Assembly: GCA_028284585.1 (NCBI GenBank)
Contig: JANQRK010000075.1
Span: 1-64,000, forward strand
Direction: 5' to 3'
DNA from: Chromatiales bacterium
GTDB lineage: Bacteria > Pseudomonadota > Gammaproteobacteria > Chromatiales > Chromatiaceae
Length of the DNA: 64,000 bases
The translations under genes were made by a program, and so were the position numbers. Numbering within the stretch: the stretch's first letter is position 1; each line of letters starts with the position of its first letter. The notes beneath the pieces were generated by a model. It searched no databases and was not told the DNA's origin. It saw only the letters and a list, made by a program, of their open reading frames with translations. Positions 1 to 51,968 of this stretch are shown here, one piece after another.

Positions 1-163
1 TTGCCCACAATGCTTGTGCCCTGGCCCTTTGGGAGCCACTGTGCGAGCGCGACTCGGTGTTGCGTTTCTTGCCAAGGGCGCGGCCATTGCCTGCGAAACG
101 CGCCTAGATTCGCGCTCGCACAGTGGCTCTGAGCGTTACAGAATTATCCGCTTGGTCCACTAG
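1..163 (-). mobile_element. Palindromic MITE-like element, family A, copy 1 (truncated by window start)
   Basis: Ends ...CTGAGCGTTACAGAATTATCCGCTTGGTCCACTAG; reverse-complement match to the elements at 7988-8254 and 51701-51968. Confidence 0.85.
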
Positions 164-7987: not shown

Positions 7988-8254
7988 CTAGTGGGCCAAG
8001 CGGATAATTCTGTAACGCTCAGGGCCACTGTGCGGGCGCGAATCAAGGCGTGTTTCGCAGGCAATGGCGCGCCCTTGGCAAGAAACGCAACACCGAGTCG
8101 CGCTCGCACAGTGGCTCCCAAAGGGCCATGGCACAAGCATCGTGGGCTGTGTTGCCGTCCTTGGAAAGGGCCTGCCATTCCCCGCGGACTGCGCCTTGCC
8201 CACAATGCTTGTGCCGCGGCTGAGCGTTACAGAATTATCTGCTTGGCCCACTAG
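7988..8254. mobile_element. Palindromic MITE-like element, family A, copy 2 (complete)
   Basis: CTAG-flanked; ~31-bp terminal inverted repeats TGGGCCAAGC(G/A)GATAATTCTGTAACGCTCAG; internal hairpins at 8024-8115 and 8130-8215. Confidence 0.9.
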
Positions 8255-12051: not shown

Positions 12052-15814
<3,763 letters not shown>

Positions 15815-15816
<2 letters not shown>

Positions 15817-15956
15817 CAGGCAGTTGAAATTCTACTCATGCGGCACGATACGGCGTTAAAACTGGGCTCAAAATGCTCATTTGCTCGCTGTAAACTGCGC
15901 TTTCTCGCCCCGTTTTGCCTTGTCTCGCACTCGCCTGAGCGAATTTCAACAGCCTG
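15815..15956. mobile_element. Short MITE-like repeat, family B, copy 1
   Basis: AACAGGCAGTTGAAATTC...GCGAATTTCAACAGCCTG imperfect terminal inverted repeats; near-identical interior to 23818-23960. Confidence 0.85.
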
Positions 15957-23770: not shown

Positions 23771-23817
23771 GTCGCAGCCGTCAGGGAGTGTTCGAGTTTG
23801 CCATGCAGCCGCGGCCT

Positions 23818-23960
23818 AACAGGCTGCTGAAATTCTACTCATGCGGCACGATACGGCGTTAAAACTGGGCTCAAAATGCTCATTTACTCCCTTGTAAACT
23901 GCGCTTTGTCGCCCCGTTTTGCCTTGTCTCGCACTCACCTGAGCGAATTTCAACAGCCTG
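23818..23960. mobile_element. Short MITE-like repeat, family B, copy 2
   Basis: AACAGGCTGCTGAAATTC...GCGAATTTCAACAGCCTG; same orientation and near-identical to 15815-15956. Confidence 0.85.
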
Positions 23961-26102: not shown

Positions 26103-26373
26103 TTAGGGTCTGTTCACACTGCGCGAGGCGCAGCGTTGCTGCCCCAAAACCTGTCAGGCAAGGCGCGAGGAGAGCGATTTAGTGAGCCTAGATGAACGAC
26201 GAGCAACGCCGCGTGGCGCGTTTTGGGGCGCAACCCGAAGGGACGGGGTCGTTTTTCCGCCCAACTTCGTTGCTGCTGGCTCATGTACAGTGAGTACATC
26301 ACGCTCGCAGCGTTTCGGTTGCCGAAAAAACGGCCGCCGTCGCAGCGGCTCGGGTAGTGTGAACAGGCCCTAG
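26103..26373 (+). mobile_element. Palindromic MITE-like element, family C, copy 1 (271 bp)
   Basis: TTAGGGTCTGTTCACACT...AGTGTGAACAGGCCCTAG; internal hairpin arms 26135-26150/26220-26234 and 26242-26265/26318-26341. Confidence 0.9.
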
Positions 26374-38673: not shown

Positions 38674-38944
38674 CTAGGGCCTGTTCACACTACGCGAGGT
38701 GCAGCGACGGGGGCCGTTTTTTCGGCCAACAAGGCGCTGCGAGTGTGATGTACTCACTGTACATGAGCGAGCAGCAACACAGTTGGACGGAAAAACGGCC
38801 CCGTCCCTTCGGGTTGCGCCCCAAAACGCGCCACGCGGCGTTGCTCGTCGTTCATTTAGACTCACTAAACCTCTCTCCTCTCGCCTTGCCTGGCACGTTG
38901 TGGGGCAGCAACGCTGCGCCTCGCGTAGTGTGAACAGGCCCTAG
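38674..38944 (-). mobile_element. Palindromic MITE-like element, family C, copy 2 (271 bp)
   Basis: CTAGGGCCTGTTCACACTACGCGAGG...CTCGCGTAGTGTGAACAGGCCCTAG; reverse-complement homologue of 26103-26373, same length. Confidence 0.92.
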
Positions 38945-49079: not shown

Positions 49080-51668
49080 ATGAAGCGAATGCTGATTAAC
49101 GCGACTCAGCCAGAAGAGTTGCGCGTCGCCATCGTAGATGGCCAAAAACTGTTCAACCTCGATATCGAATCTCCCGGCCGGGAGATGAAGAAGGCCAACA
49201 TCTACAAGGGCCGGATCACCCGCGTCGAACCCAGCCTTGAAGCCGCTTTTATCGATTACGGCGCGGAACGCCATGGCTTCCTGCCGATGAAGGAGATCGC
49301 CCGCGCCTATTTCAACGCGGCGGCGTTCGACAACGGCAAGCGCAACATCAACGACTTGCTGAAGGAGGGCCAGGAGCTCATCGTCCAGGTCGAGAAGGAG
49401 GAGCGCGGCAACAAGGGTGCCGCCCTGACCACCTTCCTCTCGCTGGCCGGGCGTTATCTCGTCCTGATGCCCAATAACCCTCGCGCAGGTGGGGTATCGC
49501 GGCGCATCGAGGGTCAAGACAGGTCCGAGCTGCGCGAGGCCATGAGCAACTTGGAGATCCCCGAGGGTATGGGGCTAATCGTGCGCACCGCCGGCGTAGG
49601 CAAGGTCTCCGAAGAACTGCAGTGGGACCTCGACTATCTGCTGCAGCTATGGCGGGCAATCGAGCAAAGCGCCGCCGAACGCAAGGCCCCGTTTTTGATC
49701 TACCAGGAAAGCAACGTCATCATCCGCTCCATACGCGACCATTTGCGCGCCGATATCGGCGAGATCGTGGTCGATCAGGCCGATACCCACGAACAGGCCC
49801 GTCAGTTCATTGAGCAGGTGATGCCAAAGTACCTGCGCAAGCTCCGGCTCTACGACGACGAGGTGCCGCTGTTTTCGCGCTACCAGATCGAATCCCAGAT
49901 CGAGTCGGCCTTCCGGCGCGAGCTGCGGCTGCCATCCGGTGGGTCTATCGTGATTGATCACACCGAGGCCTTGACCTCGATCGACATCAATTCGGCGCGC
50001 GCCACAAAGGGCTCGGATATCGAGGAAACCGCGCGCAACACCAACCTCGAGGCAGCCGAAGAGATTGCGCGCCAGCTCCGGCTGCGTGATCTCGGCGGAC
50101 TATTCGTTATCGACTTCATTGACATGACGCCCTCGCGTAATCAGCGCGAAGTCGAAAACCGACTGAAGGAGGCAATGAAAGAGGACCGCGCCAGAGTCCA
50201 AATCGGCCGCATATCCCGGTTCGGCTTGCTGGAGATGTCGCGCCAGCGATTGCGTCCCTCACTTGGCGAATCGGCGCATCAAGTCTGCCCGCGCTGCGAC
50301 GGACAGGGCCACATCCGCAGCGTGGATTCGCTCGCGCTGTCGGTCCTGCGGATTATCGAGGAGGAGGCACTGAAGGAGAACACCGGCCGGGTCTCTGCGC
50401 AACTCCCTATCGAGGTCGCTACCTATCTGCTCAATGAAAAGCGCCAGATGATCGCTGATATCGAGGCCAGGCACCAAGTTGCCATTGTCCTGATTCCGAA
50501 TCGGCAGCTCGAGACCCCAAAGTACGAAATCGAACGCGTTCGTCGCCAAGATACGCAGGAAGAAGACACGCGCAGCCATGAGCTGGAGAAGAGCTTCACG
50601 CCGGACAGCCAACCGCCCGTGGAGCGTGCGCCTACGCGCACTGAAAGACCCGCAGTTGAGAACATCGCGCCAACCTCGCCGGTGCCGCAGCGCCCTCAGT
50701 CGCAACATGTGTCGCCAGATCAAGCGATGCTGCCGGGCAGCAGCGAGAGCGGCTTTATCAAGCGACTGTTCAGTGGGCTATTCACTGGGCGCGAGGAAGC
50801 GGCCGCACCGACTGAGGAATCCGGCGCACCCAAACAAAGTGAGGGCGAATCATCGACGACCCCTTCGTCTGCCGGCTCGCGGCAGCGCCGCGGTGCCAAC
50901 AGTGAGCGCCGCTCCCAGCGCAGCAGCACAAAATCCGGCGAATCTCGTCAGGGACGCTCGAGTCGACGCGGCGGGCGATCCAGCCAGTCGGTCTCGAAAG
51001 CCGCTGGTCCGGCAACCGACAAGGGCGCCTCAGAATCCACCGATGACAACAAACCGAGCAAGGAGAAGGCGGCACAGGGTACGTCCCAATCCGATGCGGC
51101 CACTTCCGGCGAGGCTCCGGCAAAGCGCAGTTCCCGGCGCGGCCGGCGTGGTGGTCGCCGGCGACGCGGCGGTGGTGGCGACAAGACCCCAGCTGCCGAG
51201 CAATCGACGGGCTCCAGCGGCTCCCCCAACCAGGAACAATCCACGACGCCATCAAAGGACGTCAAACCGGCCAGCGAGCAACCTCAGGCTGACGAGTCCA
51301 CGACGGCATCGGCGCAACGCAGCCGCAGGCCCAGGCGGTCTGAACCCTCGTCCGCCGAGTCGTCCCAGGCGCGGCCAGTTGCCGAGGCATCCGACAAGGC
51401 ACTGGCCGACGCCCGTCCTCAATCCGCACCTGGGCCCAAAGCAGCGGCGCGCTCTTCAGAATCCGCGCCCGCCGCAGAAGCGAAACCCGCTCCCGTCGAG
51501 AGCAAACCCACGGCCCCAGCGCGCAATGCGGAGCAACCGCCGGGGCCTGTGTCGAGCGAGCCGCCACAGCCCTCCTCGATCGAGCGAGCGGTGTCCAGCA
51601 CGCCGCAGAAAAAAACCGCGGCCAAGCCAGCGCCGCCCCAGACCGAGGCCGATCCGGGTGAGAACTGA
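49080..51668 (+). CDS. rne: Ribonuclease E
   Basis: [31 protein letters not shown]1 domain, [32 protein letters not shown], disordered Arg/Ser-rich C-terminal half. Confidence 0.96.
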
Positions 51669-51700: not shown

Positions 51701-51968
51701 CTAGTGGGCCAAGCGGATAATTCTGTAACGCTCAGAGCCACTGTGCGAGTGCGAATCAAGGCGCGTTTCGCAGGCAATGGCCGCACCCTTGGCAAGAAAC
51801 GCAACACAGAGTCGCGCTCGCACAGTGGCTCCCAAAGGGCCAGGGCACAAGCATCGTGGGCTGTGTTGCCGTTCTTGGAAAGGGCCTGCCATTCCCCGCG
51901 GACTGCGCCTTGCCCACAATGCTTGTGCCGTGGCTGAGCGTTACAGAATTATCCGCTTGGCCCACTAG
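51701..51968. mobile_element. Palindromic MITE-like element, family A, copy 3 (complete)
   Basis: CTAGTGGGCCAAGCGGATAATTCTGTAACGCTCAG with a perfect inverted copy at the other end; between convergent rne and the LMW-PTP gene. Confidence 0.92.

Follow-up and report, generated by a model that had tools for sequence, protein, structure and literature searches.

Y-shaped modules of two inverted hairpins with a shared internal loop in IS5-type non-autonomous elements of a Chromatiales bacterium and beyond

We find that two repeat families, A and C, in a 64,000-nt stretch of DNA from a Chromatiales bacterium (the window) belong to one class of Y-shaped elements, which are MITEs by their mobility but have an unusual, conserved body. 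Our best reading is a superfamily of IS5-mobilised non-autonomous elements with a selected, orientation-independent structured module. Specifically, we favor, with a probability of about 0.6, a non-autonomous IS5-type element carrying a conserved Y-shaped module that probably resides in read-through RNA, its loop bound or processed by a host factor. A first-pass annotation had taken the elements for a class under structural constraint and not for randomly decayed MITEs, and our results support this view; we correct it in that the elements are of the IS5 type with a TA target, and in that the class is spread far beyond the genome that contains the window (G000).

The two family C copies in the window (Table 1) lie as inverted homologues exactly where the first-pass annotation had placed them, and are 90% identical over 270 nt. 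The CTAG-type ends that it had described are TTAG/CTAG in one copy and CTAG/CTAG in the other, and both internal hairpins that it had quoted for copy 1, with the GTACAGTGAGTAC loop, are present. Folding of the family C copies as RNA yielded z scores of -7.86 and -13.1 relative to dinucleotide shuffles, with 0 of 200 shuffles as good, and folding of copy 1 with DNA parameters yielded a z score of -6.2; the family A element at 7988-8254 has an RNA fold z score of -14.5. The topology is common to both families, such that the proposed outer stem with two hairpins stands, with the correction that the shape is a Y in which a 7-nt CCNNNGG mini-hairpin occupies the junction. Copy 2 of family C separates hydrolase 2 from hydrolase 1 of an exosortase-A cluster, lying after the stop codon of the former and ahead of the start codon of the latter, and the RNase E gene (49080-51668) is followed closely by the second full family A copy. 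The window also codes for BchE, which makes a phototrophic purple bacterium the probable host. The genome (4.06 Mb in 119 contigs) carries at least 40 copies or fragments of family C and at least 40 of family A, and many of its contigs terminate within an element copy.

Table 1. Y elements, their parts and possible relatives in the window (CM, covariance model; R2 was built with family A held out)
Feature	Coordinates	Strand	Remarks
Family C copy 1	26103..26373	+	TA..TA 26104-26372; target TTAG left, CTAG right
Hairpin 1 of family C copy 1	26135..26234	+ (core-motif orientation)	CM R1 E=1.9e-19; CM R2
Junction mini-hairpin CCGAAGG, 7 nt, copy 1	26235..26241	.	RNA fold
Hairpin 2 of family C copy 1	26242..26341	- (core-motif orientation)	CM R1 E=3.4e-12
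Family C copy 2	38674..38944	-	insert missing in sibling genome G002
Hairpin 1 of family C copy 2	38813..38912	-	CM R1 E=7.2e-20
Hairpin 2 of family C copy 2	38706..38805	+	CM R1 E=4.4e-19
Family A element, same Y fold	7988..8254	+	hairpins 8022-8118 (+), 8124-8220 (-); CM R2 E=1.3e-7 and 1.1e-8
Family A, second full copy	51701..51968	+	hairpins 51735-51832 (+), 51838-51934 (-); CM R2 E=1.1e-9 and 3.9e-9
Family A element cut by window/contig edge	1..166	-	hairpin 32-129 (-)
Possible single-hairpin relative, other ends CAGGCTGTTGAAATT	15812..15956	-	CM R2 E=0.005; RNA fold z -7.0
Possible single-hairpin relative, second copy	23815..23960	-	CM R2 E=0.022; 95% identical to 15812 copy

We scanned fetched loci, unsupervised, for inverted repeats bounded by TA and folded the results; this yielded 136 elements, of which 100 show the complete Y, with outer stem, first branch, mini-hairpin and second branch. 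Lengths do not vary freely: the branches cluster at 99-100 nt in C-type and 96-97 nt in A-type elements, the spacer is 7 nt, the outer part measures 32-34 nt in the majority, and a nested 27-bp insertion accounts in part for the longer element classes. The junction is CCCNNNGGG in nearly all elements of the folded set, although part of that set was fetched by a pattern containing the junction motif, which biases its conservation in that part; the motif is present too in relatives of families A and C fetched by DNA similarity. The geometry was also measured in a search of 100 loci with a single-hairpin covariance model (R1), which gave 173 matches, 150 of them aligned. Adjacent hairpins among the aligned matches are convergent in 57 of 58 pairs, and 52 of the convergent pairs are spaced by exactly 7 nt; larger gaps, of 31 and 34 nt, would fit inserts at the junction, and L207, one of the loci with a 34-nt gap, has a nested 27-bp insertion there. 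The sole same-orientation (tandem) pair is at L201:4068-4274. Some elements are shortened, to about 204-240 nt, by loss of part of one hairpin (L203, L205, L111, L114, L171), and these might reveal a dispensable arm.

When hairpin 2 was reverse-complemented and aligned with hairpin 1 across diverse families, one motif emerged in both: the ascending side reads 5' CAAGGC, the descending side 5' CAACGC, and together they make an internal loop. This loop surrounds two nearly invariant pairs (C-G in 43 and G-C in 44 of 45 hairpins). Over the same 45 diverse hairpins, paired bases occupy 91.7% of cells, compared to 37-42% after a shift of the partner by 1-3 columns, and the covariation score is 0.846, compared to 0.12-0.18 after the shift. 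Moreover, double-changed cells number 429 (143 in shuffles), and 26 of 28 base pairs covary by double changes. A second covariance model (R2), built from C-like hairpins only with family A held out, recovered every hairpin of both full family A copies in the window, four in all (E 1e-7 to 1e-9). Since this held-out model finds them, families A and C are by this measure homologous in their core, and the earlier description of the two as sequence-unrelated gives way to a short conserved core common to both. We take the aligned sequences to establish both the constraint on the fold and the shared core, and we conclude that the Y shape is kept for a reason in bacteria as far apart as Pseudomonas and Acidobacteria.

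We considered which molecule folds. In motif orientation, T.G and G.T pairs outnumber A.C and C.A pairs by 61 to 19 (63 diverse hairpins, symmetric scoring), an asymmetry that owes something to one or two conserved positions shared by descent and thus weighs less than the raw counts; a larger set gave 131 G.U-type to 44 A.C-type pairs, but with a model that itself favors G.U. An excess of G.U favors folding of the motif strand, as RNA or as single-stranded DNA, over a cruciform of both strands, although we regard this evidence as suggestive only. Furthermore, the motif is inverted, with one on each strand, and therefore a transcript of either direction contains one motif; for this reason we prefer a role in read-through RNA, and the module probably acts as transcribed RNA. 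The hairpins might instead work at the DNA level, as extruded cruciforms or on single-stranded DNA at replication forks, bound by a host or transposition protein. The strand symmetry of the whole element is also compatible with this alternative and counts against the RNA reading; the fold is significant with DNA parameters too, and the element is mobile DNA. We nonetheless consider a DNA-level role unlikely, because a cruciform formed by both strands would not give the excess of G.U-type over A.C-type pairs, and because the IS5 partners have no such hairpin.

A function may not be needed at all if the elements are ordinary MITEs with an inherited shape, the stems of which are kept complementary by quasi-palindrome (template-switch) correction. 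Template switching does correct long near-perfect palindromes, and the copies are numerous and mostly intergenic, which speaks for this explanation. Such correction would, however, erase an asymmetric internal loop, yet the unpaired bases of this loop rank among the most conserved (alignment columns A125, 98%; A29, 96%; G31, 94%). Moreover, hairpin length and the 7-nt spacing persist despite complete divergence of the stems, across classes and in a second phylum. We thus consider it quite improbable that the elements lack a function.

The ends of the elements point to IS5-family transposases. Copies are flanked as YTA-element-TAR, with CTAG..CTAG, CTAG..CTAA and TTAG..CTAG all common; the latter two arrangements fit duplication of TA only, within YTAR. 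The sibling genome G002 has an uninterrupted junction between hydrolase 2 and hydrolase 1 (ACTGACTTGCG), where the genome with the window has the element in ACTGACTAGCG. IS5-family insertion sequences with family C ends span 815 and 809 bp from TA to TA and encode DUF4096 and DDE_Tnp_1 in two overlapping frames; those on plasmids bear GGGCCTGTTCACACTA / GGGCCTGTTAACACTA ends, which match the terminal inverted repeats of the elements. Thus, like MITEs, the elements have no transposase gene and have terminal inverted repeats in common with an autonomous IS, and the target duplication and empty site are those of an IS5-family (IS427-like) MITE. Another end type, AGAGCCTATCC, is carried by a second IS5 lineage (about 25-30% amino acid identity), and cores of one kind have received different ends from at least two distant IS5 lineages. 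The core hairpin is absent from the examined IS5 insertion sequences of both end types. Furthermore, in one element (L036) hairpin 1 shares 90% identity with family C, whereas the outer stems look unrelated (54-57% identical), from which we infer that ends and core are exchangeable. As far as DNA comparison can establish them, the mobility type (ends, target and empty site) and the exchange of ends are settled. A search of the genome with the window found no IS with family C ends, so current mobility there is only putative, and a search for a partner of the family A ends identified none. An IS630/Tc1-type partner, suspected first from the TA duplication, was set aside, since the three DDE_3 loci of this genome, which the test covered, have no matching ends and the IS5 ends match.

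Y1 transposases recognise imperfect hairpins, and the hairpins could in principle be substrates of REP-associated Y1 tyrosine transposases (RAYT/TIRYT), as REPs and REPINs are. TIR-flanked Y1 genes are indeed reported in hosts that include Koribacter (PMC3733652), but this origin is very improbable and a Y1 partner largely refuted, because 29 Y1_Tnp loci of the genome with the window and its relatives have no core hairpin, and because the TA target, terminal repeats of ~20 nt and IS5 partners fit a DDE transposase.

In the IS5-based reading that we prefer, resident or visiting IS5-family transposases would act in trans on the terminal repeats, with insertion at YTAR sites (preferably CTAG) and duplication of TA. 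The body is a conserved module, not decayed IS sequence, made of a ~33-bp outer stem and two ~100-nt inverted hairpins with the 7-nt mini-hairpin between them; the internal loop (5' C-AA-G-GC-G / 5' C-AA-C-GCn-G) lies at the same height in each hairpin. Stem sequences drift freely yet remain complementary, with loop and geometry kept, and the terminal repeats can be swapped for those of another IS5 lineage. The module would work as a single-stranded nucleic acid, most likely RNA produced by read-through from neighboring genes, in which a widely conserved host factor would bind or process the internal loop; the inverted duplication would supply one correctly oriented loop whichever the direction of transcription.

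The class is widely distributed. We obtained an R1 match (E<=1e-5, these E-values being rough) in 137 of 399 sampled Pseudomonadota genomes, representing 70 of 213 genera. A pattern search, some matches of which are due to chance (e.g., L185, Bacteroidales), added Candidatus Thiodiazotropha, Chromatiales, Pseudomonas, Azotobacter, Thiobacillus, Nitrosospira, Kiloniellaceae and Acidobacteriaceae. Copies on plasmids are rare and, where present, intergenic, and the Pseudomonas element had no match among 50,697 phage records. When the empty site was reconstructed for 32 testable copies, an ORF of at least 450 nt ran across it in 6, compared to 61% of YTAR control sites, which indicates that copies persist mostly between genes; the orientation of the genes flanking these 32 copies displayed no clear bias. 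We tentatively suggest, at somewhat less than even odds, that these are orientation-independent, Y-shaped, protein-binding mobile RNA modules forming a superfamily that crosses phyla and persists by swapping IS5 terminal repeats. If so, a protein-binding RNA superfamily would occur in about one-third of the sampled Pseudomonadota genera and in Acidobacteria.

We found no description of this class in Rfam or in the literature searched, which excludes most subscription journals. No covariance model of Rfam 15 matched above its gathering score, and the lenient matches were limited to low-scoring microRNA models, which we reject as generic long hairpins. The hairpins are presumably not attC sites either, since the box order does not fit. 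Several known systems share some features, each compared here by the description cited. MITEPsy1 of Pseudomonas syringae, the transposition of which was demonstrated in vivo, likewise has no genes, IS5-type ends and a CTAG/YTAA target, but is 100 nt long with a reported 4-bp duplication and a restricted distribution, and no double-hairpin core is mentioned there (PMC3189936). Correia/NEMIS and ERIC repeats are also non-autonomous MITEs with TA at their ends, and their transcripts fold, can be cut by RNase III (Correia) and can alter mRNA levels; in contrast to Y elements, they form one long stem-loop of 100-200 bp in narrower host groups, and neither an inverted pair of conserved internal loops nor an exchange of ends is reported in these accounts (PMC2229807, PMC10969869). 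The CIR repeats of Caulobacter and Brucella have a predicted RNA of two arms and a linker that is conserved across genera, but by description no outer stem (the authors set them against repeats with paired 5' and 3' ends), and GANTC in the loop (PMC2229807). REPIN/BIME repeats with RAYTs are likewise inverted hairpin pairs, intergenic and of high copy number, but have units of 20-40 bp tagged GTAG or CGTC, the GTAG type being accompanied by Y1 transposases (PMC3116915, PMC3733652). The R0 and R2 repeats of P. fluorescens are gene-less with IS-like ends, but are single hairpins of 89 and 110 bp; R200 (320 bp), compared by description, could overlap with the Y-element class (PMC2718517). Going by these descriptions, none of the nearest systems unites the traits of the Y elements: the outer stem, the inverted pair of hairpins with a conserved internal loop in common, the spread across phyla and the swapping of ends.

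Bacterial MITEs are usually seen as decayed insertion sequences; here, the would-be junk body is conserved across classes and in a second phylum, and it is the transposon ends that are replaceable. The role of MITE bodies thus becomes directly testable, also in Pseudomonas strains common in the laboratory, and the covariance model enables annotation of many copies now in unannotated stretches.

Two other repeats were noted. The ~146-bp repeat with CAGGCTGTTGAAATT ends, of which only two copies were found in the genome with the window, may be a single-hairpin relative of the Y elements, with a visible CAAGGC/AACGCC core and borderline statistics. The nested 27-bp insertion, which includes a 23-bp palindrome (CCCCAAGGGCACTTCCTTCGGGG) and lies at GCGYR sites, occurs at differing places in seven loci (L134, L156, L159, L207, L147, L148, L235); perhaps with duplication of CGYR, it looks like a separate, very small mobile palindrome.
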